Of a stretch of DNA of 64,000 nucleotides, positions 3,158-50,604 are shown in pieces. Position 1 is the stretch's first letter, and each line of letters starts with the position of its first letter. A program made the position numbers and the translations under genes. Source of the stretch: Rhodospirillales bacterium BBD 1991-14 (lineage in GTDB: Bacteria; Pseudomonadota; Alphaproteobacteria; Kiloniellales; Kiloniellaceae); assembly GCA_001657395.1 (NCBI GenBank), contig LYSY01000001.1, positions 868,001 through 932,000 of the forward strand. The letters are read 5' to 3'. The notes under the pieces were generated by a model. That model was not told the DNA's origin. It searched no databases and saw nothing but the letters and a program-made list of their open reading frames with translations.

Positions 3158-4612
3158 CTACAGCACCGGCGCCAGAAGCCGGGAAAGGCTAACACCGAAG
3201 CGGAACCAGACCGACCTGTCGTCCAGTTCACCGGCTATGACCCGGCGGCTGACGGCGAAGTCGGCCAGAAGCATGGTCTCGACCTGAATTGCGAAGTCCG
3301 GGTCGAAAACCACCAGTGAGACCTCGAAATTCAGTCGGAAGGAACGATTATCGAGGTTTGCCGTCCCGACGCTTGCCAGATCGTCATCGATCAACAGCAC
3401 CTTCTGGTGCAGAAACCCGGCTTCATAGCGGTAGATTTCGATGCCCGCTCGTTCCGCCATCGGATAGTGGGCGTAGCTGGCCCAGTCGACCCAGACGTGA
3501 TCGGCCCTCTCCGGCAGCAGCAGACGGACCTCAACGCCGCGCAGCCGTGCGAGCTGCAAGGCGGCCAGCGTCTGCTCATCCGGCACGAAGTACGGACTGG
3601 CGATCCAGATCCGGTGCCGCGCAGTGGATATGGCCTCCAGGAAGAAAAGTGCGCAGCTGTCCCAGTAATCGGCAGGACCGGTCGGCAGGATGAGGGCCGC
3701 GCTCTCGCCCACGGCTTCCGCCGGGTCCCAGCACAGCGCCGGGACTTCACGCGCCGCCCAGTACCAGTCCTCGATGAAGGCCAGTTGCAAAGCCTGGACG
3801 CAAGGCCCGAAGAGGCGGACGTGGGTGTCACGCCAGGGGCTGAACCGGCTGTCCCGTCCAAGGTACTCGTCGCCGAAGTTGAAGCCGCCGACAAAAGCCA
3901 GGGAGCCGTCGACCACCAGGATCTTGCGGTGATTGCGGAAGTTCAATTGAAACCGGTTCACCGGACCCTGGGTCGTCGAGAAAGCCCGCACGCTCACGCC
4001 CTCTTTGCGCAGGTCGGCGGTGTAGTGCGCCGGAAGACCGTGGCTGCCGATCTCGTCATAGAGGAAACAGACGCTCACACCACGCCTGGACAGGCGGATC
4101 AGGCGCGCCTTGAGGTCACGGCCAAGATCGTCGTCGCGCACCAGATAAGACTGCAGCAGGACGTAGCGCTCGGCCTGGTCCATAGCCTCGAACATGGCAC
4201 CGTAGGCGGCGCAGCCATCCTGCAGCAGATCGATCCGATTGCCTGTGGTCACCGGCATGCCGGCCAGTTGTTCCAGCACCTCCAGGCGTGCGCCGCCGAC
4301 GCCGCCACGATGTCCGACCGACCGCGACAGGCGCTGACGCAGCTCGGCGGCGATGTGGTGGATCTGCAGATCGCCGCTGCGCCGGGCCGCCACGTAGCCA
4401 TGGAACTTCCCGCGGCCGAAAATCCAGTACAACGGCAGCGCAAGATAGGGAAAGGTGATCAGCGAGATCGTCCAGGCCACTGCCCCCTGGGCGGTGCGCG
4501 TTCGCACGACCGCATGCAAGGCCGAGAACAGGCCGGAGAAGTGGATGAGGCCCGCCAGGAGGGCCAGGATGACCCAGGCATTCTCACTCTGAAACACGGA
4601 CAAGGACGTCAC
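3158..4612 (-). CDS. cls: Cardiolipin synthase, phospholipase D family
   Basis: Membrane enzyme that joins phosphatidylglycerol molecules to make cardiolipin. The 484-residue protein starts with two hydrophobic segments (about 10-30 and 40-65) and has two HKD motifs, HxK(x)4D(x)6GxxN, in the PLDc domains: one starting HRKILVVDG near residue 229 and one starting HQKVLLIDD near 399. Both are intact. The start codon is GTG at 4612 with a CAGGT sequence upstream. The gene stands alone, convergent with tadC and 87 bp from the downstream end of the sensor kinase gene. Length and layout match bacterial ClsA-type enzymes. Confidence 0.92.
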   Translation of the reverse strand: MTSLSVFQSENAWVILALLAGLIHFSGLFSALHAVVRTRTAQGAVAWTISLITFPYLALPLYWIFGRGKFHGYVAARRSGDLQIHHIAAELRQRLSRSVGHRGGVGGARLEVLEQLAGMPVTTGNRIDLLQDGCAAYGAMFEAMDQAERYVLLQSYLVRDDDLGRDLKARLIRLSRRGVSVCFLYDEIGSHGLPAHYTADLRKEGVSVRAFSTTQGPVNRFQLNFRNHRKILVVDGSLAFVGGFNFGDEYLGRDSRFSPWRDTHVRLFGPCVQALQLAFIEDWYWAAREVPALCWDPAEAVGESAALILPTGPADYWDSCALFFLEAISTARHRIWIASPYFVPDEQTLAALQLARLRGVEVRLLLPERADHVWVDWASYAHYPMAERAGIEIYRYEAGFLHQKVLLIDDDLASVGTANLDNRSFRLNFEVSLVVFDPDFAIQVETMLLADFAVSRRVIAGELDDRSVWFRFGVSLSRLLAPVL

Positions 4613-4699
4613 CGGACCTGTTCACATCGACGCATGCTTTTACCGCGCCGCGGCACCGGCTGCAGTAAAAAGCGGTGACGTCTGGCCGCTTCCCCGGCC

Positions 4700-7600
4700 T
4701 CAGAGACCCTGGGCGGCGGACTCGCGGCTGTTTCGAACCTCCAGCAGAGCCGCCTGGAGATCCTCCGTACGAGCCGGCTTGCGCAAGGACTTGAAGCCGT
4801 TTGCCGCTATCTCGCGCCGCGGTTCCACGCCCTGATCAGCGGTGATGATCAGAACCGGGACCTCCCGGCCGCAGAGGCGCCGCAGCCGGACCGCGACCTC
4901 AACCCCCGTGACGTGATTGGGCAGTCTGTAGTCCGCAACGATCAGGTCGATCGGTGCCTCCGCCGCCTGCAGTTGGGCGCAGGCTTCCTCGTAGTCGGTC
5001 GCCACGTGCACGCCACAGCCCCAGGACTGCAGGACCATGGCCATGCCCTTCTTGCTCTGAACATCGTCCTCGACGACGAGGACCTGAAGCCCCTCCGCCA
5101 GGAAAGCCTCCTCCGCCTTTCTTTCCAAGGCCGGCGGCGGCCTGACCGAGGAGTCCGCCGCCGCCAGCTCGACGGCGAACATGCTGCCCCGGCCAACCAC
5201 GGAATCGACGACGATCTCGTGTCCGAGGATATCGGCCAGACGCCGCACGATCGAAAGACCCAGGCCCACGCCCTTGCGCCGGTCGCGGGCCGGATTGTCG
5301 AGCTGATGGAACTCCTCGAAAATGGCCTCGCGCTTGGATGGCGGCACGCCCGGGCCGGTATCCCAGACCTCGATACGGATCTTGCCGGCGCGCCGCCGAC
5401 AGCCGATCAAAACCTTGCCGGTCTCCGTGTAACGCAGCGCGTTCGACATCAGGTTGCCGAGGATCCGTTCCAGAAGGTCCGGATCGCTGTAGACCATCTG
5501 ATTGCAGGGGACCACCCGCAGTTTCAGTCCACGGTCCTCCGCCTGATGGGCATAGACCCTTTGAAGGCCATCGAGCATCCGCTGCACCGTAAAGGCCTGG
5601 AAGTGCCCTTCAAGCTGGCCCGTCTCGAGTTCCGAAATGTCCAGGAGGGCATTCAGCAACCGGCCCGCCGCCTCGGAGGCTTCTCGAATGTCCGCGACGA
5701 TGTCATGGACATCGTCGTCCTCGACCGTCGCTTCCAAGGCAGCCACGAACAATTCGATGGCATGGAGAGGCTGGCGCAGGTCGTGGCTGGCGGCCGCGAG
5801 GAAACGGGTCTTGGCCTCATTGGCCGTCTCCGCTGCTTTGCGCGCCCTCTGCAGCTCGGTGATGTCCGAAATGATGCAGGCGGTGCCGCCTTCGCGGGTC
5901 CGCCGTTCGGTGATCAGAAGCGAGCGCCCATCGTTCCAGTCCTGCTGCAGAAAGCTCTCCGCCGCCCGATGATGGGCAAGGCGCTGCTGGATCCAGGCCT
6001 CTGCAGCCTCGGGGTCATCCAGGCCAGGGACGTAGCCATGCCTGACGTTGGTGCGGATGATATCCTCAAAGGTGGCGCCCGGGACGATATGCGTGCCACG
6101 ATTGACAGAGGGGTGCCTGTAGGTCTGGTTGCAGAGAACGAGGCGGTCCTCGGCGTCGAAAAGGGCAAAGCCCTCTGACAGACTCTCGATTGCGTCGATC
6201 AGGCGCGCCTCTGCCGCCTCCGCATGCCGCCGCGCCTCGATCTCCGCTGTCTCGTCCTCGGCCACGCCCCGATAGCCGCTGAAGCGGCCGCTGCGGTCAT
6301 AGTGCGGCTTCCCGTTGATCCGCCAGTGATAGCGATCTCCCTTGGCGTCGGTGAAGGCCGCGCGCAGGTCGCGGATCGGGCGGCGCGCCCTGAAGTCCTC
6401 ATGGAAGCCGCGCCAGTAGGGGTCCTTGACGATGTCGGCGCCGAAGAGCTCCCAAAGCGTACAGCCAACCGCCTCTTCAGCGCTCGGCCGCGACGGGCCG
6501 CTCGCCGTCTGAACGTCGAGAAAGGAGGAGATCCTCAGGTCCTGGTCCATTTCCCAGAACCCGCCCGGCCCCGACTCGGCAAAGTCCTTGAAGCGTTGCT
6601 CGCTGTCCTTGAGGGCATCTTCGGCTTGCACGCGCTCGGTGATGTCGAGCCGGATCCCGATGAAACCGCCGGCCTCCACAGGATGGTTGCGCGCTTCGAT
6701 CCAACGGCCCTCGCTGGTCTTGGTGCGGAACGTCGGATGGCTCATGACGTAGCGCGGCATTTCCTTCTGGCCCAGCGGCACCTCGTCCGCCGCCATGACC
6801 GAGAACTGGTCCCGATCGAAGGCAAGCTTCATCAGATCGCTGTAGTCCGCACCAGGGCGGATCTCCTCAGCCAGCCGCGGAAACAGCTCGCGATACTTGC
6901 TGTTGCAGAGGATCAGCTTTCCGTCGGTGTCGTACCAGACGAAGCCATCGGTCATGCTCTCGATCGACTCGGACAGCAAAGCCTTGGTCCGTGCCGCTTC
7001 CAGCTCGCTCTGGAAGAGCGCCCGTTCGGCACGCTTGCGCTCCGTCATGTCGCTTCCGAGTGAAGCCAGGCCGATGACGCTTCCTTTGGCATCGCGCCTG
7101 GGAAACTTGATGGTCAACACCGTCCGCTTGCCGCCTTTGGTCTGCACCACCTCTTCCTGGATCAGCAGGCGACCGCTTTTCAGGACTTCGAGATCGGCCC
7201 GTCTGACCTTCTCGGCCCACTCGGTATTGTTGGATATCTCAGCCGGAAGGCGTCCGTAGATCTCTTGCGGCGTAAGGCCGTGGACTTCGCAGAGCTGACG
7301 GCTCACCGCCATGTAGCGGCCTTCGGAATCCTTGATGTTCATATAGAGCGGCGCATGCTCGAAAATCATGCGCAGGCACTCCTCGCTGTCCCGCAGGGCC
7401 TGCTCCACCTTGCGCCGCTGGGTCACGTCGGAGGAGATGGTGCCGATTCCCAAAAGAGCGCCGCTGTGCGCGATCACCGGAAACTTGATGGTGATGGCCT
7501 CGATGGCACCGTCCTGAAGCGGGATCGACTCCTCAAAAACAATCGGCTTGCGGTCTCCCAGGACCTCGCGGTCTATGCGCAGGTTGCGCTCCACCCACTC

Positions 7601-42273: not shown

Positions 42274-44385
42274 ATGCGTAAGGGAAGACGTGGCAACAAG
42301 GGAGCCACGCCCGGGTTTGGTGTGTGCGGCCGGTGCAGGGCCGGTCAGAGTGTTTTCCACCTGCGGATCTTGTGGGGTCCGGTGCTGGGTAGTGCTGTCC
42401 TGGCAGCGGGCGCGGTGTTTGGCGCGTCCACGTCCTGGGCACAGGATTGGGTGCCTGAACTGCAGGGCGCCGAGGGCGAGGCCCGCGGGCGCAGCGATCC
42501 CATCGTCATCTCACTGCCACCCGACCTGGACGCGGGCGTCTATGACCGTCTGGCCGTCGAGATCGACGATATCGACATGACCGCCTTCGCCAGCACGGCG
42601 CCCGGCCAGATCACGATCAACCCGCCTGAATCCCTGAGCACGGGCCAGCACACGGTGCGCCTGATCGAGCGGGGTGAGGACGGCAGCATCCTGGAGCGCG
42701 GCGTCTGGGTTGTGGAGGTTCGCTTCTCCGAACTGGTGCGCGACTTCTCCGTCAATGCGGACCTGGCCGGCGAAGTCAACGGCCGGGTGCTGGACGGCGG
42801 CCTCGACACGCCCCCGCAGCATGTGACCGGTGAAAGCGGCGGCAACCTGGAAGCCTCCGCCGGCGATGAGAACTGGCGCGTCTCGGTGCAAAGCAACTAC
42901 ATCTACAACTCGCAGCTTGAGCTGGGCCTGAACGACCGCAACCTGGACCTGGGCGAGTACCGCATCGACGGCGACTTCCAGAACGAGGACTTCTTTGCCG
43001 GGCTCACCGCCGGCAACCACGACACCGGCATCGAAAGCCTGATCATGTCGGCCTTCAACCGCCGCGGCGTCTCGGTCCGGGCCGGCACCGCGGACGACCG
43101 TCTCAGTGCGACCGGTTTCGTGCTCCGCACCGAATCCATTGTCGGCACACGGCATGTCCTGGGGATCAGCCACGACGAGGAGCGCATCGAGGGAGCGTCC
43201 ATCTCTGTGCGGCCGATCGAGGCGCTGCAGGACAACATCCTGCTGACCGGCGTCTACTACAGCGGCGAAGGCAGCGACGGCGGCTTCGGCATCGGCACCG
43301 AAGAGATCATCAACGAAGGCGACGGCTGGTCGGTCGCCGCCGACACCCTGTGGTTCGACGAAAGCCTGCGCCTGCGCGGTGAGTTTGCCGAGGCCAGCTT
43401 TGACTTCGACGGCAAGGATGCCGGCTTCGACGCGGAGACGGCAAACGCCTACTCCGTCCTCGCTTCCGTCGAGCCGCTGCGCGGCACAACCTTGGACGGA
43501 AGCGTGGTGAACTGGACGATCAGCGCCCAGCGCGAGCAGGTCGACACCTTCTTCCAGAGCCTCGCCAATCCGTCCATCCAGGCGGACCGGGAGACGAACT
43601 CGGTCTTCACGGACTTCTTCTGGGATCAGTTCGCCGCGCAGCTGCGCGTCGACCATCAACTGAACAACGTCGACGATCTGGACTTCCTGCCGACCGACCG
43701 CATGCTCAGCGGTTACTTCAACGGGACCTACACACCCTATGTGGAGCCCTCCGAAGACGGCAGCCTGCCGTGGTTCGGCCAACCCTTCTTCGGCGTCAAC
43801 GCCTCGGTCACCGACATCAACAGGGTCGAGCGGTCGGCGGACTTTCCTGAAGACGACGCCAACAACATCAGCAAGTCGCTCACCCTCAACACCGGGTCCA
43901 ACTACGAGACCTGGAGCTGGAACCTGTCGCACACGATCTACACCTTCGATGACGAGATCAACATCAGCAACGACAGCATCAACAACACGACCGGCCTGAG
44001 CGGCTACTTCCTGATCGACGACTGGCTGACCCTGTCGCCCAGCGTGCAGTACGACGTGTTCGAAGACACGGATAGCGGCAAAGCCAGCAGGACCATCAAC
44101 CTGGGGATAGCAACGGATATCACAGTGATCCCCGACACGCTAGCAGCCAGCTTCTCCTACAATATGAACGTACGGACCGGCGACGGCGACACACCGGATA
44201 CCAGCAGCCTGAGCGGCGAAGTCGTCTGGACCCTGCGGGAGCCGGACGTCAACACCCTGGGCATTGCCCTGGCCTTCAACGGCTTCATTCAGGAAACGCG
44301 GAATGACGATTTCGTCAGCCCAGAAGACGATGTGCAGTACCAGGCCTTCACCACGCTCCGGCTGTCGCTGCCGGTGAGTTATTGA
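42274..44385 (+). CDS. Predicted outer-membrane beta-barrel protein with N-terminal beta-sandwich
   Basis: Protein of 703 residues. A long signal peptide (basic MRKGRRGNKG, hydrophobic core, likely cut after SWA near residue 56) is followed by a beta-sandwich-like domain (about 75-165; e.g. LAVEIDDIDMTAF and GQHTVRLIERGEDGS). The remainder is a long series of alternating amphipathic strands rich in Asn, Asp and aromatic residues. The chain ends LRLSLPVSY, an aromatic-terminated strand as recognised by the BAM machinery. It lacks a TonB box and plug. GCAGGGG precedes the ATG at 42274. It is the first gene of a six-gene run and lies 11 bp before the first of two paralogous exported proteins. 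I do not recognise the family. Confidence 0.75.
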   Translation: MRKGRRGNKGATPGFGVCGRCRAGQSVFHLRILWGPVLGSAVLAAGAVFGASTSWAQDWVPELQGAEGEARGRSDPIVISLPPDLDAGVYDRLAVEIDDIDMTAFASTAPGQITINPPESLSTGQHTVRLIERGEDGSILERGVWVVEVRFSELVRDFSVNADLAGEVNGRVLDGGLDTPPQHVTGESGGNLEASAGDENWRVSVQSNYIYNSQLELGLNDRNLDLGEYRIDGDFQNEDFFAGLTAGNHDTGIESLIMSAFNRRGVSVRAGTADDRLSATGFVLRTESIVGTRHVLGISHDEERIEGASISVRPIEALQDNILLTGVYYSGEGSDGGFGIGTEEIINEGDGWSVAADTLWFDESLRLRGEFAEASFDFDGKDAGFDAETANAYSVLASVEPLRGTTLDGSVVNWTISAQREQVDTFFQSLANPSIQADRETNSVFTDFFWDQFAAQLRVDHQLNNVDDLDFLPTDRMLSGYFNGTYTPYVEPSEDGSLPWFGQPFFGVNASVTDINRVERSADFPEDDANNISKSLTLNTGSNYETWSWNLSHTIYTFDDEINISNDSINNTTGLSGYFLIDDWLTLSPSVQYDVFEDTDSGKASRTINLGIATDITVIPDTLAASFSYNMNVRTGDGDTPDTSSLSGEVVWTLREPDVNTLGIALAFNGFIQETRNDDFVSPEDDVQYQAFTTLRLSLPVSY

Positions 44386-44396
44386 GGGCACGGGTT

Positions 44397-45596
44397 ATGA
44401 TGAGATCCTTCGTTAGCGTTCTTGCGCTGTTGTCAGCCGTCGTTGGCATCCTCCTGGCTACCTCGGCAGTGCAAGCTCAGACCGTTGTCACCGTCGATCC
44501 AACGCCGAGCCGGGCCGCGATCTCGCTGGACGGCCCCTCCACCGTCACCATTGCCTGGCGGGTGTCACGCACCTCCACTCCAGCAGGCACAGTCAACTCA
44601 GCACCCGCGCAGCTTTCGGTCGGAGGCTTCAGCGCAGGTACCCTCGGCAGCACTTTTACACGCGCGTTCCCGGGTGCGGGAACCCAGTCGGCGACCTTTG
44701 TGGAGACCTTGGTAATTCCCCGAGACCTCGCATTTCGTGCCACAAGGTCAGGTGCCCCGATACTGGTTTCCCGCACATTCACGGATGTTATCAGCGCGGT
44801 CAATGACACCGGCACCGTCGCACTCTTCCCCTCCGGTCCCGGCTCGGAGCCCTTCTCCATACGGCGGCTCGATCTCACCTTCGACGACCGCTCGCGCGTG
44901 CGGGTGCTCGCCAAGGGCAGCCGGCTGCGGGCCATCGCGGAGATCAATACGACCGGGTCGGGCCTGATCGTGGGGCAGTGGGAAATCGCACCGGCAACCA
45001 CCACCTCCGGAGCGCCGGTCTTCCGCCCGCTCGCGCTGGTGCGCCAGAACGTCGCCGGCGGCCGGCGGGTGTTCATCACCAGCCCGCCCCTGCCGACGCG
45101 CTTTGAGGGCACCAACCTGGTTCGGCTCAACATCACCGATCCGGCAACCCTCTTCGATGAGCCGGAACTCCAATACTACGTGACGCCGGAGAGCCCCCTG
45201 CCCGAGCGCCAGGAGCCGCGGCTGCTACTGATGACCAGCCCCAGCCCCGGCACGCCGTTGACCCTGACGACCCGCTTCGCCTGGCAGGCCGTGCCCGGCG
45301 CCAAGGCCTACAAGCTGGAGTTCTTTCCGGCCATTCCCGTCCGGGCCGAACCGCCGTCCCAGGACGAGGTCGTCGCCAACCTCCCGCTGGACCCGGGCCC
45401 AGCGCCTCAGACCGATCCGGCTGCAGGCCCCTTGACGGGGATCGTGTTGCCGGGAGCGGTCACCGAAACACGGCTGAAGGACTTCACCCTGGCCCACCTG
45501 CCGGCCCAACGCCGCTACCGCTGGATCGTGACTGCGATCGGCGAGGACGGTGCGGTTCTGGGGGCCAGCGCCATGCGGGAGATCTACAAGCCTTAA
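44397..45596 (+). CDS. Exported beta-sandwich protein, paralogue A
   Basis: Protein of 399 residues with a clear Sec signal peptide (cut near VQAQ). The body is strand-rich with few charged helices and no catalytic motif. It shares blocks with the next gene: a GAPVFRPLALVRQ segment, EGTNLVRLNITDP, LQYYVTP, a fibronectin-III-like FAWQAVPGAKAYKLEFF and the shared C-terminus REIYKP. GAGGG lies 8 bases upstream of ATG 44397. The start is 11 bp after the barrel gene stop, so it is almost certainly co-transcribed. It may be a periplasmic or surface partner of the barrel protein. Confidence 0.75.
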   Translation: MMRSFVSVLALLSAVVGILLATSAVQAQTVVTVDPTPSRAAISLDGPSTVTIAWRVSRTSTPAGTVNSAPAQLSVGGFSAGTLGSTFTRAFPGAGTQSATFVETLVIPRDLAFRATRSGAPILVSRTFTDVISAVNDTGTVALFPSGPGSEPFSIRRLDLTFDDRSRVRVLAKGSRLRAIAEINTTGSGLIVGQWEIAPATTTSGAPVFRPLALVRQNVAGGRRVFITSPPLPTRFEGTNLVRLNITDPATLFDEPELQYYVTPESPLPERQEPRLLLMTSPSPGTPLTLTTRFAWQAVPGAKAYKLEFFPAIPVRAEPPSQDEVVANLPLDPGPAPQTDPAAGPLTGIVLPGAVTETRLKDFTLAHLPAQRRYRWIVTAIGEDGAVLGASAMREIYKP

Positions 45597-45727
45597 CGCC
45601 CTGTCGAACACCGTTACCCGCCGTTGAACCCGGGCTCCGGCCATCGCGACCAACGGGAGAACCGCAGCCAAGGCCCGGTGGCCCGACGCTTTGCTGCGCA
45701 ACGGATCGTTAGGCAAGGAATAAAATC

Positions 45728-46942
45728 ATGCGCCCACGAGCAACCCGCCTTATCCTCGCAAGGACCGCCGCAGCGGCGGCCCTGATGCTTTCAGCCCTGC
45801 CGGCCGCGGCCGCGGTGGATACCGTCCAGCCGTCGCCGAGCAAGGCGCAGGTGGCCGCGACGGGCGCGAGCAGCATCGCCGTCACCTGGCGTGTTGGGCG
45901 CAGCATCGTCAGCATGCTGCCGTCGCCCGGCACCATCGGATCGCAGCGCGCAGAGCTGCTGATCAACGGTTCCGTGGTCGCCACCATAGGCCGGCGTCTG
46001 GAGCAGACGACGGAAGGCGAGCAAACGCCTGAGACGTTTCTTTTCCGCGAAACCGTCAGCATTCCGCAGTCCCTCGTCTACCGGGCCATAAAGCAGGAAA
46101 GCCCCATCGTCATTCGGCGCAGCTTCGAAGACAGCGTCGAGACGGGGTCGGAAGACGGCGAAGTTCTGGTGGTGCCCGCCGGACCCGGATCTGCCGAACT
46201 CTCGATTCAGCGCATCTCGCTTTCCTTTTTCGACGATTCGCGCACCCAGGTGCTGCCCAAGAACAGCGATTTGCGGGCCGTTGCCGAGGTGAACACAACC
46301 GGCGTCAGCCTGCTGACCGGGGTCTGGGAAGTTGCCAGCGGCAGCTCAACGGCCGGAGCGCCGGTCTTTCGGCCCCTGACTCTGGTGCGCCAGGGCATCG
46401 CCGCTAGCGGACGGACTGTCGTCACCTCGCCGCGCCTGCCCACCGCAACGGAGGGCACCAACCTGGTGCGCTTTCGCATCACCAACCCGGAAACCGATTT
46501 CCGGCAGCCCGTCCTTCAGTATTACGTGACGCCGCCCAGCGCGACCGTTGCCGTCGATCCGCTGCGGGAGATCCTCCTCTCCGGGCCGCGCCCCGGCGAA
46601 GCGCTGACCGAGGACACGCGCTTTGCCTGGACTGCGCTCGCCGGCGCGGCGACCTACCACCTGGAGCTCTTCGCAGCGCCCGCAGGCCCGGCCGAGCCTG
46701 TCGATACCCAGGCGGTGCGCAGTGAGATCCCCCTTGATCCGTCACCCGAGACCGGGCAAACGGACGGCCAGGTTCCGCTGGCCGGGGTCTTTGTGCAGGG
46801 CAGCGAAAATGAGGCCCGCCTGGCCGATTTCACTCTCGCCCAGTTGCCGGGCGATCGCCGCTATCTCTGGAAGGTCAGCGCAATTGATGCTAAGGGCGCT
46901 GTCATCGGGTCCAGTTCGGTCAGGGAGATCTACAAACCTTAG
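45728..46942 (+). CDS. Exported beta-sandwich protein, paralogue B
   Basis: Protein of 404 residues with a signal peptide ending near LPAAAA. It is a paralogue of the preceding gene product: GAPVFRPLTLVRQ, EGTNLVRFRITNP, LQYYVTP, FAWTALAGAATYHLELF and the terminal REIYKP correspond block for block. The duplication is old, since the N-terminal halves have diverged. AAGGAATAAAATC precedes the ATG. A 131-bp gap separates it from paralogue A and may hold an internal promoter. The ECF sigma gene follows after 42 bp. Function unknown. Confidence 0.75.
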   Translation: MRPRATRLILARTAAAAALMLSALPAAAAVDTVQPSPSKAQVAATGASSIAVTWRVGRSIVSMLPSPGTIGSQRAELLINGSVVATIGRRLEQTTEGEQTPETFLFRETVSIPQSLVYRAIKQESPIVIRRSFEDSVETGSEDGEVLVVPAGPGSAELSIQRISLSFFDDSRTQVLPKNSDLRAVAEVNTTGVSLLTGVWEVASGSSTAGAPVFRPLTLVRQGIAASGRTVVTSPRLPTATEGTNLVRFRITNPETDFRQPVLQYYVTPPSATVAVDPLREILLSGPRPGEALTEDTRFAWTALAGAATYHLELFAAPAGPAEPVDTQAVRSEIPLDPSPETGQTDGQVPLAGVFVQGSENEARLADFTLAQLPGDRRYLWKVSAIDAKGAVIGSSSVREIYKP

Positions 46943-46984
46943 GCGTCCTCGGACCCGGGTCGCCGCTTGCCGTGAGGACTTCTC

Positions 46985-47539
46985 TTGACACAAGACGATC
47001 GAGAGCTGCTTCGTCGCATGGCCGACGGCGACCAAACCGCCTTGGACGACTTTTACCGGCAGTATGAAGGTCGCGTTTACCGCTTTATCCGGTCAAAATT
47101 GAACGATTCCTTCGATGCCGCCGACGTACTGAACGAGGTCATGTTCGAGGTCTGGCGCAGCGCCGGGCGCTTTGAAGGACGATCTGCGGTGAGCACATGG
47201 GTACTGGGTATCGCTCACCACAAGGCAATCGACCGGATACGCCGACGCAAGCCAGGTGAGAGCGTGGAGCTGGACCCGGAAATCGCGGAAGACGACTCCC
47301 CGGACCCCGCAGAAACGCTCTCCGCAGCCCAGAATGCCGAGCAAGTGCGTCACTGTGTCGATCAACTCTCAGAGGCACACCGCAGCGTGGTTCATCTGGC
47401 GTTCTTCGAAGACCTCCCCTACGGCGAGATAGCCTCTATCGTGGGCTGCCCCGAGGGAACGGTGAAGACAAGAATGTTTCACGCGAAGAAGGCGCTGATG
47501 AAGTGCCTCGCGGGGCTCAAAGAGATGGGACTGTTGTGA
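46985..47539 (+). CDS. ECF-type RNA polymerase sigma factor
   Basis: Extracytoplasmic-function sigma-70 factor of 184 residues. Region 2 is visible as YRQYEGRVYRFIRSKLNDSF and NEVMFEVWRSAGRFEGRS, and region 4 as LSEAHRSVVHLAFFEDLPYG with EIASIVGCPEGTVKTRMFHA. The start is TTG at 46985 with AGGA about 8 bases upstream. The stop overlaps the next gene by one base (TGATG), which couples sigma and anti-sigma synthesis. It presumably transcribes its own operon and the flanking surface-protein genes, although I could not find a clear promoter motif. Confidence 0.93.
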   Translation: MTQDDRELLRRMADGDQTALDDFYRQYEGRVYRFIRSKLNDSFDAADVLNEVMFEVWRSAGRFEGRSAVSTWVLGIAHHKAIDRIRRRKPGESVELDPEIAEDDSPDPAETLSAAQNAEQVRHCVDQLSEAHRSVVHLAFFEDLPYGEIASIVGCPEGTVKTRMFHAKKALMKCLAGLKEMGLL

Positions 47540-48156
47540 TGGCTGAGAACGGAAAACGAGACGAGGACCTGGACCTCCTCCTCCCGTGGTATGTAAACGG
47601 GACCCTGAGCGCCGAGGAGCAGCAGGCGGTCGAGGCCTACCTGGAAACCAACGCGCATGCGCGCGACGAGGTCGCCCTGCTTGCCGCCATGCGCCAGCAG
47701 GTGAAGGAAGAGAGCATCGAGAACAGCCCCGGCGAACTGGGCCTGAAGCGCCTGCGGCGGGAAATCAGCCTCAGCGAACAGCAGGCGCCGGCGCCGGCCG
47801 AAACCGGCAAGGTCGTCTCCATCGCTTCCTGGTGGCGCCCGCTGGCCGTTGCCGCCTGCCTGGCCGTCGTCATTCAGGCAGGCGTCATCGTCACCGGCGG
47901 ACCGGATGGCGAGGTCGATACAGCAACCGGTTTCCGGCCTGCCGTTCTTCAGGTGACTTTCGACCCCGACGCGACGGAGCAGCAGATCCGGGAGGTTCTG
48001 CAGGCGGCGGGTACATCGATTGCGGGGGGCCCCAGCGCCCTTGGAATCTATGACCTGAGCCTCCAGGCCGCCGACGGCGGCGCCGCCGAGATCGACGCCG
48101 CGCTCGCAGCGCTGCGGGCCCGCGGCGACGTCGTGACCTTCGCCGAAAGGAACTGA
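47539..48156 (+). CDS. Transmembrane anti-sigma factor with subtilase-propeptide-like periplasmic domain
   Basis: Protein of 205 residues. The N-terminal part (LLLPWYVNGTLSAEEQQAVE) has the helical layout of anti-sigma domains but lacks the Cys/His zinc ligands. A single transmembrane helix lies at about 98-118 (WWRPLAVAACLAVVIQAGVI). The periplasmic tail (about 135-203) has the order strand, helix, strand, helix, strand: LQVTFDPDAT, QIREVLQAAG, GIYDLSLQ, AALAALRARGD, VVTFAE. This resembles the inhibitory propeptide fold of subtilases and the corresponding region of the protease encoded 3 bp downstream. The sigma gene overlaps it by one base. Regulation through this domain is an inference. 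Confidence 0.82.
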   Translation: MAENGKRDEDLDLLLPWYVNGTLSAEEQQAVEAYLETNAHARDEVALLAAMRQQVKEESIENSPGELGLKRLRREISLSEQQAPAPAETGKVVSIASWWRPLAVAACLAVVIQAGVIVTGGPDGEVDTATGFRPAVLQVTFDPDATEQQIREVLQAAGTSIAGGPSALGIYDLSLQAADGGAAEIDAALAALRARGDVVTFAERN

Positions 48157-48159
48157 CCC

Positions 48160-49845
48160 GTGCGGGGCGTCCTGTGGATGGCCGGTGTCGTTGCCCTGAT
48201 GCTCGGTCTTGCCGATACGGCGGCTGCACAGGTTTCGACCACCGATCAGGGCGCCGCCCCGCGGATCACCGGGGTCGGTGTGGTCCGTTGTGTCGAGCCC
48301 GGCGACCGCATCGTCGTGCGCGGCAGCAACTTCGGGCGCGCCGGCGGCAAGTCTCTGATCATGCGGGACTCGGCCCACCGCGTTGATCTGCCCATCACCT
48401 ATTGGAACGACAACAGTATAGGGGCGACTGTGCCACGCAGCCCGCAGCTGGTGCCAGGCAGCTGGTATGAGCTGGGCATCGAGGACCGCAGCGGAAACTG
48501 GACCAGCGCCCAGCGCCGCCCGCTTCAGATCTGCCCGCCTGCGCGGCCGCAGTCGGATTCCGCCAATATCCCCATCGACCCGCAACGCGGCACCATCGAT
48601 CCCGACCGCAGGCCCGGAACCCGGCAACCGACCGACCGGCCCCAGCAGGCCGACCGTCCGCGGCAACCGGACCGGCCGTCTCCCCAGACGCCGGGAACCA
48701 CGACCGAGCGTCCCGGAGCGCCGACTCTGCCGGGCCTGCCTGCCCCGCCGCCGCCGGCCCAGGCCGCCAGTCCCAACCAGGAAGATGACGAGGTTCTGGC
48801 CATTACCGGGACCCTGCAGGATGCCACGGCCCTGGCGCAGCAGTTGACAAACCTGGGGTACGCGGTGCGTTCCCTTCAGGAACTGCCGGTGCTGGGGTTT
48901 GCCCTCATGCGGCTCGGCATTCCCGGCGGACAGGACGTGCCGACCGCCCTGGATTCCCTGCGCCAGACCTTCCCGACCACGCTCTTTGATGCCAACACGC
49001 TCTACGGTCCACAGGCCGCCGCCGAGCCGCGCCACTATGCCAAGGACCTGATCGGCTGGACGGAGCCGCTGCAGGAATGCCGGCTGGAAGTCGACGTCGG
49101 CCTTATTGACACCGCGGTCGACGGCGGACATCCGGCCCTGCAGGACAGCCGCGTTCTCGCCAAGAACTTTCTGACCTCCGGCCTCAAACCCGCACCGCCC
49201 GACCACGGCACGGCCATCGCCTCTCTGATTGTCGGCGATCCCAAGTCCAACACCGCCGGCCTTGTTCCCTCCGCCCGTCTCTACGCGGCGGCGATTTTCG
49301 GTTTAAGGGACAACGATCGGGTCGTGGGCACCACCGATGCCATCGCGCGCGCGATCGACTGGCTCGGGCAGCAGGGCGTGCGCATCGTCAATCTGAGCCT
49401 GTCCGGCCCGAACAACCAGGTCCTGCGGCTGACGATGGAGCGGGCCCACGGCAGCGGCATGATCCTGATCGCCGCCGCCGGCAACGAGGGACCGAATGCA
49501 GCCCCGGTCTTTCCTGCCGGCTATGCCCCGGTGATGGCGGTGACGGCCGTCGATGCGGCACTGCAGCCCTACACCGAAGCCAACCGGGGCGACTACATCG
49601 ATCTTGCCGCACCCGGCGTCGACGTCTGGAGCGCGCGCAGCGGCCGCGGCGGCCGCTACAGCAGCGGCACCTCCTTTGCCGCGCCTTTCGTCGCGGCCTC
49701 GGCCGCCGTTCTCCTCGCCCTGGAGCCGGATGTTTCGGCCGAAGCGATGCGCCAGCGCCTGACCAACACCGCCCGCGACCTGGGCTCGCCGGGGCGCGAC
49801 AGCACCTTCGGCTGGGGCCTGCTGCAACAGCCGGCGGGCTGCTAG
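48160..49845 (+). CDS. Exported subtilisin-like serine protease (S8) with IPT-like N-terminal domain
   Basis: Protein of 561 residues with a signal peptide cut near TAAAQ. An IPT/TIG-like domain (about 34-126; CVEPGDRIVVRGSNFG) is followed by a Pro/Arg-rich linker (about 127-208). A propeptide-like segment comes next (about 212-280; ITGTLQDATALAQQL, then FALMRLGIP), then the S8 catalytic domain. The triad is complete: Asp317 (VGLIDT), His349 (PDHGTA) and Ser505 (GTSFAAP), with oxyanion Asn442 (AAGNEG). The start is GTG with AAAGG 9 bases upstream, only 3 bp after the anti-sigma stop. It probably acts in the periplasm or at the cell surface. Confidence 0.92.
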   Translation: MRGVLWMAGVVALMLGLADTAAAQVSTTDQGAAPRITGVGVVRCVEPGDRIVVRGSNFGRAGGKSLIMRDSAHRVDLPITYWNDNSIGATVPRSPQLVPGSWYELGIEDRSGNWTSAQRRPLQICPPARPQSDSANIPIDPQRGTIDPDRRPGTRQPTDRPQQADRPRQPDRPSPQTPGTTTERPGAPTLPGLPAPPPPAQAASPNQEDDEVLAITGTLQDATALAQQLTNLGYAVRSLQELPVLGFALMRLGIPGGQDVPTALDSLRQTFPTTLFDANTLYGPQAAAEPRHYAKDLIGWTEPLQECRLEVDVGLIDTAVDGGHPALQDSRVLAKNFLTSGLKPAPPDHGTAIASLIVGDPKSNTAGLVPSARLYAAAIFGLRDNDRVVGTTDAIARAIDWLGQQGVRIVNLSLSGPNNQVLRLTMERAHGSGMILIAAAGNEGPNAAPVFPAGYAPVMAVTAVDAALQPYTEANRGDYIDLAAPGVDVWSARSGRGGRYSSGTSFAAPFVAASAAVLLALEPDVSAEAMRQRLTNTARDLGSPGRDSTFGWGLLQQPAGC

Positions 49846-49917
49846 GACGTTTTCGACTGCCGTCGATGCGGTTCCAGCGGGCCGGTGCCGTCAAACCAGC
49901 AAAGCGTCCAGAGCGGA

Positions 49918-50604
49918 TCAGCCGGCGACGCAGTCCAGCAACGGACCCAACTGACCCACCCTTTTGCGGATCGTCGCCGCCCGCCCGGCGACGTAGTCCC
50001 CCGGCGGGTGAGCACGCCACTTGAGAGGGCTTGGCAGAACGGCCGCCAACTGCGAGGCCTGGCGAAGGCTGAGGTCCTTGGCACCGACACCGAAACTCGC
50101 CCGCGCCGCAGCCTCGGCCCCATAGACACCCGGGCCCCACTCGGCAATGTTCAGGTAGACCTCGAGAATGCGCTGCTTCGGCCAGATCACTTCCAGGGAC
50201 GTGGTCAGGGGCAGTTCCAGGGCCTTGCGGAAGACGGAGCGTCTCGGCCAGAGAAAGAGGTTTTTTGCGGTCTGCATCGAAATGGTGCTGCCGCCTCCGG
50301 CGCGGCGGCCCTCAGCGTAGGCTTTGACGGCGCTCTCCAGCGAACTCCAATCGAAACCGTCGTGCTCGCAGAACAGGTTGTCTTCCGCCGCCACGGCGGC
50401 ACGCCTCAGATGCGGGCTGATCTCGTCCCAGGACACCCAGTCCCTTTCCAGCCCCTGTCCTTCGATCAGACGGATGACCATCAGCGGCGTGATCGGCGGC
50501 GGCACGAAGCGGTAAATCACCGTGAGCGCCAGGGGTGCAAATACAACGATCAGCAACGCCCAGAGCGCCCAGCGCCGCACCTTGGAGGAGAACCGTCGGG
50601 TCAT
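49918..50604 (-). CDS. mtgA: Monofunctional peptidoglycan glycosyltransferase
   Basis: Family 51 glycosyltransferase of 228 residues that polymerises lipid II into glycan strands. An N-terminal membrane anchor (about 12-32) precedes the catalytic domain. The motif AAEDNLFCEHDGFDW carries the catalytic Glu, GGSTISMQTAKNLFLW is motif 2, and KQRILEVYLNIAEWG contains the second Glu. No transpeptidase domain follows, hence MtgA rather than a bifunctional PBP. It lies 24 bp after the large coiled-coil protein gene on the same strand and is probably co-transcribed with it. Confidence 0.95.
   Translation of the reverse strand: MTRRFSSKVRRWALWALLIVVFAPLALTVIYRFVPPPITPLMVIRLIEGQGLERDWVSWDEISPHLRRAAVAAEDNLFCEHDGFDWSSLESAVKAYAEGRRAGGGSTISMQTAKNLFLWPRRSVFRKALELPLTTSLEVIWPKQRILEVYLNIAEWGPGVYGAEAAARASFGVGAKDLSLRQASQLAAVLPSPLKWRAHPPGDYVAGRAATIRKRVGQLGPLLDCVAG

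Follow-up and report, generated by a model that had tools for sequence, protein, structure and literature searches.

RsiV, the anti-sigma factor of sigma-V in Bacillus subtilis, binds lysozyme at the active-site pocket and inhibits it, and this binding renders RsiV sensitive to site-1 cleavage; its outer domain is DUF4163/DUF3298 and the site-1 cut is made by signal peptidase (PMC5014341, available sections). The site-1 proteases named in the accessible text of a review are DegS, DegP, SipS, SipT and Prc, with no S8 subtilase among them (PMC7593790). For ECF54, subtilase or caspase-like/CHAT genes are found near the extracytoplasmic function (ECF) sigma factor, which is described in the accessible part of the source as controlled without an anti-sigma factor (PMC8999054), and the SUB1-ProM gene adjoins subtilase genes (PMC6993865, available part). 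Here we describe a locus of Rhodospirillales bacterium BBD 1991-14 that encodes an ECF sigma factor, a membrane anti-sigma factor and an S8 (subtilase) protease, in which the anti-sigma factor ends in a tail resembling a subtilase propeptide. The window, i.e. the whole stretch of 64,000 nucleotides that was analysed, comprises positions 868,001 to 932,000 of contig LYSY01000001.1 (genome G000, contig G000:C1 in our labelling). Literature searches covering titles and abstract openings, with most subscription papers outside this scope, brought up among the papers listed no anti-sigma factor with a propeptide-like domain and no such triplet, and term searches in the available text of PMC8103513, PMC7406223 and PMC11557425 returned nothing on this architecture.

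All three genes are located on the plus strand. The sigma gene (46985..47539; 184 amino acids, TTG start; Pfam Sigma70_r2 8.2e-17, Sigma70_r4_2 2.3e-14) overlaps by one base with the anti-sigma gene (47539..48156; 205 amino acids, ATG start), and a gap of 3 bp separates the latter from the protease gene (48160..49845; 561 amino acids, GTG start; Pfam Peptidase_S8 3.6e-39), in agreement with the positions and coupling given in the initial annotation. The 205-amino-acid protein matched the NCBIfam anti-sigma model NF052375 with an E-value of 4.1e-12 and 46.6 of 100 bits, which is under the model cut-off. Among 25 anti-sigma homologues, zf-HC2 was matched at E up to 1 in 18, and a sigma gene was adjacent to the anti-sigma gene in 18 of the 25 loci. 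With a predicted N-terminal helical anti-sigma domain, one predicted membrane helix and an ECF sigma neighbour, the protein qualifies by its model as a membrane anti-sigma factor. DUF4163 and DUF3298 were absent from the Pfam matches of this protein and its homologues, so that it does not belong to the RsiV family.

The structure of the anti-sigma factor was predicted with AlphaFold2 from an alignment of 46 homologues. Its helical domain (residues 1–57, 47539..47709, model helices 3–57), presumably cytoplasmic, is supported by Foldseek and zf-HC2 matches; the anti-sigma factors ChrR (2q1z) and RslA (3hug), which are among the matches listed for the model, most probably correspond to this N-terminal part. 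The membrane helix (residues 99–118, 47833..47892) was modelled with low confidence (block pLDDT, the predicted local distance difference test, 49–63) and coincides with a hydrophobic stretch of the sequence. It is followed by a low-confidence linker (118–131) and then by the tail domain (residues 136–204, 47944..48150), probably on the periplasmic side. Within the tail, ten-residue blocks reached a pLDDT of 89–97 from residue 141 on and 77 for residues 131–140. The predicted template modelling score of the whole model was 0.40, which is unsurprising because two domains are joined by a flexible linker.

The tail is predicted to form a domain of approximately 70–80 residues with strands at 137–141, 159–163, 170–175 and 199–204 and helices at 147–157 and 182–194, i.e. 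the strand-helix-strand-strand-helix-strand topology of subtilase propeptides. When Foldseek matches were assigned to the tail by size, POIA1 ranked first, and the prosegment of subtilisin BPN' (1spb_P; probability 0.97, target-normalised template modelling score (TMt) 0.62, root-mean-square deviation 2.8), PC1/3 prodomains and pro-subtilisin E were also found; eight propeptide-type chains were among the best 50 of 388 matches. Hence the structure search did not place the tail in an unrelated fold, and propeptide folds were among the top-ranked solved matches, with weak E-values. The Pfam fervidolysin prodomain (PF22148, Fervidolysin_NPro-like) matched 11 of 25 full-length anti-sigma factors (best 1.2e-4) and 14 of 31 isolated tails (best 1.3e-6); Inhibitor_I9 was absent among the Pfam families listed for anti-sigma factors and tails. 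Taken as predictions, these data support a subtilase-propeptide topology of the tail. It is propeptide-like and not a propeptide, being C-terminal on an anti-sigma factor and not N-terminal to an S8 domain in the same chain.

The adjoining protein is by sequence an S8 subtilase with an Asp, His, Ser catalytic domain (residues 312–553, the Pfam stretch; 49093..49818). D317, H349 and S505, which we take to be the catalytic triad, were invariant in 36 S8 homologues, and a hydrophobic N-terminus suggests that the protease is exported. Its predicted structure includes a second copy of the same topology at residues 207–283 (48778..49008), with strands at 207–216, 235–242, 247–253 and 275–283 and helices at 219–231 and 260–270; the pLDDT was 93–98 for the block 211–280, and a low-confidence stretch at 287–291 would be compatible with a processing site. 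Among solved structures, the one best matching the complete protease model was unprocessed pro-subtilisin E (3whi; 368 columns, TMt 0.81), fervidolysin ranked third, and mature subtilisins in the same list gave a TMt of 0.78–0.84 over approximately 263–281 residues. A TMt of 0.81 against the 355-residue pro-subtilisin E target requires that the propeptide be superposed as well, so that the protease is predicted to carry a propeptide of its own, N-terminal and in the position known from pro-subtilisin. The fervidolysin prodomain was matched by one of the 36 homologous proteases (4.4e-5).

Comparison of the two regions supports a relation at the profile level. Alignment of a profile of 31 tails with one of 36 S8 pro-regions (hhalign) gave P = 7.1e-5 and a probability of 63% and spanned anti-sigma residues 136–198; after column shuffling none of 400 profiles reached the observed score of 26.5 (mean 8.7, maximum 20.3). 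When the S8 profile was used in full (561 columns), the tail profile was placed best at S8 residues 211–272 (P = 0.0011, probability 20%), and among 16 sliding windows of that profile the two holding most of the pro-region had P below 1e-4, the next best, overlapping the pro-region end, having 0.0017. Smaller profiles used at first had given a weaker match (P = 0.0013 local, 0.17 global). The proposal in the initial annotation that the tail mirrors the propeptide-like region of the protease was thus borne out by the profiles, by the shuffle control and by the predicted topology, and its register, anti-sigma residues 135–203 against protease residues 212–280, agrees with the profile alignment within two residues. 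The order of elements it had listed is the same in both predicted structures, except that one strand had been missed, the middle of each domain being a strand-strand hairpin. As evidence its hand alignment fails: when the two window sequences were aligned pairwise, 1197 of 2000 shuffles reached the observed score, which is chance level. The hand alignment alone therefore proved nothing, and it is the profiles and the structure predictions that carry the relation.

Genomes with an anti-sigma homologue numbered 22 of 61 in the order, 14 of 385 in the class, 21 of 299 in a phylum sample and, with many weak matches, 41 of 369 in a second class of the phylum; these samples overlap. A tail-only profile matched in 12 of 289 genomes of the class at one place each, 11 of these being anti-sigma genes already found and the twelfth lying in G331. 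For a linkage count, 57 anti-sigma places were drawn from the order, class and phylum searches, with repeats counted once. Eight of 33 order-search rows were left out, namely four weak tail-less matches (G000:C6, G055:C95, G042:C1 and G053:C246, with no S8 gene in their 1.5-kb flanks), the shortened G037:C2 and three second pieces of counted places, and both G709, which has no tail, and G640:C26, whose tail is doubtful, were kept and scored as misses. S8 positions were taken from the 150 rows of S8 matches listed. Among these matches, an S8 gene lay within 5 kb of at least 50 of the 57 places, the farthest at 1,236 bases, compared with approximately 0.34 expected by chance if 5 Mb is assumed for most genomes. 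Where a genome had a single S8 gene passing the cut-off among the matches listed, it adjoined the anti-sigma gene in 15 of 16 cases; in the sixteenth (G049), about 0.4 kb of contig follows the anti-sigma gene. As a control, 67 zf-HC2 matches in 36 genomes were inspected, and among the S8 matches listed a gene was found within 5 kb for 11 of 11 tail-bearing proteins and 3 of 56 others. An earlier version using part of the S8 list (48 places) gave the same outcome.

In the second class, 30 loci were inspected, weaker search rows being left out with the exception of G911:C3, beside which an S8 gene was found. The tail profile was detected in 24 of these loci, and 17 of the 24 have an S8 gene in the flank; three of the 24 (L110, L115 and L117) repeat places already in the set of 57. 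Three of the six loci without a detectable tail have S8, and the C-terminal regions of the six resemble diverged tails by eye. Linkage is also kept where gene order varies: in L069 and L074 the S8 gene precedes the sigma gene, and in L060 the anti-sigma gene separates sigma from S8 and lies on the other strand. The tail and protease genes thus co-occur far above chance, also where order or strand differs.

Some loci depart from the triplet in other ways. In L039, L040, L041 and L050 an anti-sigma and S8 pair has no sigma gene adjacent, sigma having been sought only next to the pair. In L048, L051 and L052 the anti-sigma gene has neither sigma nor S8 beside it and follows the genes of two proteins of secreted and coiled-coil-like appearance, as judged by eye; the anti-sigma open reading frame (ORF) of L052 ends after 90 residues, before the membrane helix. 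L104 encodes on the minus strand (4445–4858), opposite a sigma/anti-sigma pair, a short protein that combines a hydrophobic, helix-like stretch with a tail-like domain and has no clear anti-sigma domain.

The pairing of tail and protease is not without exceptions. The seven misses among the 57 places are G049, G038:C7, G039:C20, G661, G640:C24, G640:C26 and G709; G038:C7 and G039:C20 are second anti-sigma copies in genomes that also hold an S8-paired copy. Among the second-class tail loci without a flanking S8 gene, contig ends truncate L120 and L129, L128 has a caspase-domain gene, and S8 is absent from the flanks of L123, L124, L127 and L133. The co-occurrence that the initial annotation had proposed to survey was therefore confirmed as frequent, and obligatory pairing was not: tails were found in four genomes (G794, G1008, G640 and G885) without detectable S8. 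A tail can thus occur without S8, although a co-encoded protease is the rule.

Several of these exceptions, together with other results, weigh against the idea that the tail is there to bind the neighbouring protease. Nine tails have no S8 neighbour (G038:C7, G039:C20, G661, G640:C24, G911:C54, G794, G1008, G995 and G946), and no S8 protein was found at E 1e-5 in the four tail-bearing genomes just named; for G885 the assembly is 86% complete, with a contig break within the tail, and in G794 and G1008 the sigma and anti-sigma genes are flanked, as judged by eye, by dnaJ-dapB-like genes on one side and carA-carB-like genes on the other. A Peptidase_C14 caspase-domain protein is encoded directly downstream of the tail-bearing anti-sigma gene in G661 and G946, replacing S8 (L103, 5450–6256; L144, 6111–7475). 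Conversely, L157 and L158 have an S8 gene of the same kind beside a different type of anti-sigma factor without the propeptide-like tail. The fold evidence is not unequivocal either: the Foldseek E-values of the tail started at 0.13, with none below 0.001 and with other ferredoxin-like or unrelated folds making up most of the best 50 of 388 matches; the window's own tail had no PF22148 match at E up to 1, and a sequence search of the PDB with the tail profile retrieved no propeptide. Mirror-tree analysis of 31 triplets with a sigma control was null for coevolution of tail and protease, since the correlation was 0.71 between tail and S8 catalytic domain versus 0.75 between tail and sigma (bootstrap difference −0.04, −0.15 to 0.06). 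Finally, no common ECF-type promoter motif was found upstream of the operon, with one chance-like match in 9 upstream stretches.

A first mirror-tree run, on 34 pairs with 296 usable comparisons and without the sigma control, had looked favourable; its outcome did not hold in the 31-triplet run and is not counted. A scan for sigma-70-type promoters over 46700–50200 gave none. In L157 and L158 the ECF/anti-sigma pair is divergent from the S8 gene, whose pro-region is similar by eye; two of the three non-tail zf-HC2 controls near S8 showed an S8 protein with a similar pro-region by eye and a different anti-sigma tail.

The interpretation offered in the initial annotation, that the tail docks the exported protease, which is thereby sensed or cleaves the anti-sigma factor, is as a whole partly supported. 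In the form that we tentatively favour, with a probability of roughly 0.42, sigma factor, anti-sigma factor and subtilase would make up one unit in which the tail, a propeptide fold acting in trans, is the receptor for active protease. The exported protease would mature by removal of its own propeptide, and the propeptide-binding face thus vacated would be recognised by the tail. Docking would draw the protease to the inner membrane, where it would cut the anti-sigma factor at site 1, and the remnant might then enter ordinary intramembrane proteolysis, so that sigma is released. The fold and the end of the tail, the gene linkage and the replacement of the partner by a protease of another class lead us to prefer a tail that is receptor and substrate. 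In classical subtilase propeptides, extra C-terminal residues fill the active site. The tail of the window species, as in 29 of 46 homologues, has at most three residues after the last strand and thus lacks such a filling, which is more in keeping with a docking or substrate role than with classical inhibition. In the remaining 17 of 46 tails, 6–16 residues follow the last strand, and these would also suit a membrane-anchored tail that parks inactive protease at the inner membrane, with sigma activity following occupancy and the anti-sigma factor left uncut. That the first-ranked fold, POIA1, belongs to an inhibitor of serine proteases whose structure was solved with subtilisin bound (entry title 1v5i) points in the same direction, as does a stand-alone propeptide-like inhibitor of Plasmodium encoded beside subtilase genes (available part of PMC6993865). 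With the short tails of the majority, however, the active site would stay open, as judged from the role of the C-terminal residues in classical propeptides, and we regard such parking as rather unlikely.

A tail that senses something else, being a ferredoxin-like domain in an operon where S8 is kept as a conserved target of sigma, would account for the nine tails without an S8 neighbour and the four genomes in which none was found, for the caspase-domain partner at two of the tail loci and for the null mirror-tree result; ferredoxin-like folds are common, and the Foldseek E-values are weak. Yet the PF22148 matches in 14 of the 31 tails point to the propeptide fold family in particular, the profile matches the neighbour's own propeptide, and S8 genes occur near few of the non-tail controls among the matches listed; we regard this explanation, too, as rather unlikely. 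That the tail would act as a chaperone in trans, aiding the folding of the protease at the membrane and coupling its export to sigma activity, is in line with the assistance that subtilase propeptides give to folding of the catalytic domain (PMC6993865, available part), but the protease has a propeptide of its own, predicted in the canonical position, and this role appears very improbable. If docking and cutting of the anti-sigma factor by the protease is the correct reading, it might be extended to a class of ECF switches across Pseudomonadota in which the anti-sigma factor would be the receptor for a mature subtilase of the same cell, its tail standing in for the propeptide in trans; one protease would then serve as ligand, as signal and as site-1 enzyme and feed back on its own operon, with exchange for a caspase-like protease in a few lineages; so broad a generalisation is doubtful at present.

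The protease also has a predicted N-terminal beta domain that is IPT/TIG-like (residues 35–125, 48262..48534, model strands 35–124), with a weak TIG match in the window protein (0.21) and TIG matched in 4 of 36 homologues. Directly upstream of the sigma gene lies a gene for a conserved protein of 404 amino acids (45728..46942, plus strand), preceded by a paralogue of the same length (44382..45596, plus strand) that belongs to the same family by phmmer; neither has a Pfam match at E up to 1. Both proteins (44382–46942) have hydrophobic N-termini. A larger ORF on the plus strand, with a weak Pfam match only, also precedes the triplet. In 18 of 25 loci, and in several of the second class, relatives of the 404-amino-acid proteins are encoded upstream of the sigma gene, so that conservation extends beyond the triplet. 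By anti-sigma identity, the closest named relatives are a Pelagibius metagenome-assembled genome (97%) and Pelagibius litoralis DSM 21314 (68%; Alphaproteobacteria, Pseudomonadota).

The modelled tail and the protease gene beside it in most relatives examined suggest that a protease secreted by the cell serves it as a signal, and the unannotated tail of these anti-sigma factors thereby gains a testable function. Were docking true, S8 subtilases would join the proteases that control sigma factors, the propeptide fold would be shown to have moved from a protease to a regulator, and one simple binding prediction would apply to many ECF operons that still await characterisation, in Alphaproteobacteria as well as in at least one other class of the phylum.

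Compared with the systems described so far, RsiV is the nearest working precedent: as a membrane anti-sigma factor with an enzyme-binding outer domain it would, by analogy and according to the available text on it, work like the mechanism proposed here, whereas its ligand is lysozyme and the outer domain of the present protein is propeptide-like, with the protease encoded next door as candidate ligand. In the RseA/DegS/sigma-E system, as in others based on regulated intramembrane proteolysis, there is likewise a single-pass anti-sigma factor with an outer tail, and a serine protease acts there as site-1 enzyme, the step that we propose; in contrast, the site-1 proteases named in the accessible part of PMC7593790 include no subtilase, and cleavage by one is a proposal of this work. 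ECF54 shares an ECF sigma factor with subtilase or caspase-like neighbours but, as far as its available description goes, has no anti-sigma factor, while here one is present that bears a propeptide-like domain. A propeptide fold working in trans is known from POIA1, the best fold match of the tail, and from SUB1-ProM, described in the available text as encoded beside subtilase genes; these are free proteins, whereas the domain described here forms the outer portion of a protein that regulates transcription. Membrane anti-sigma factors with an enzyme-inhibitor-like outer domain are known, and our data suggest that what is new here is an outer domain of this kind with the fold of a subtilase propeptide.

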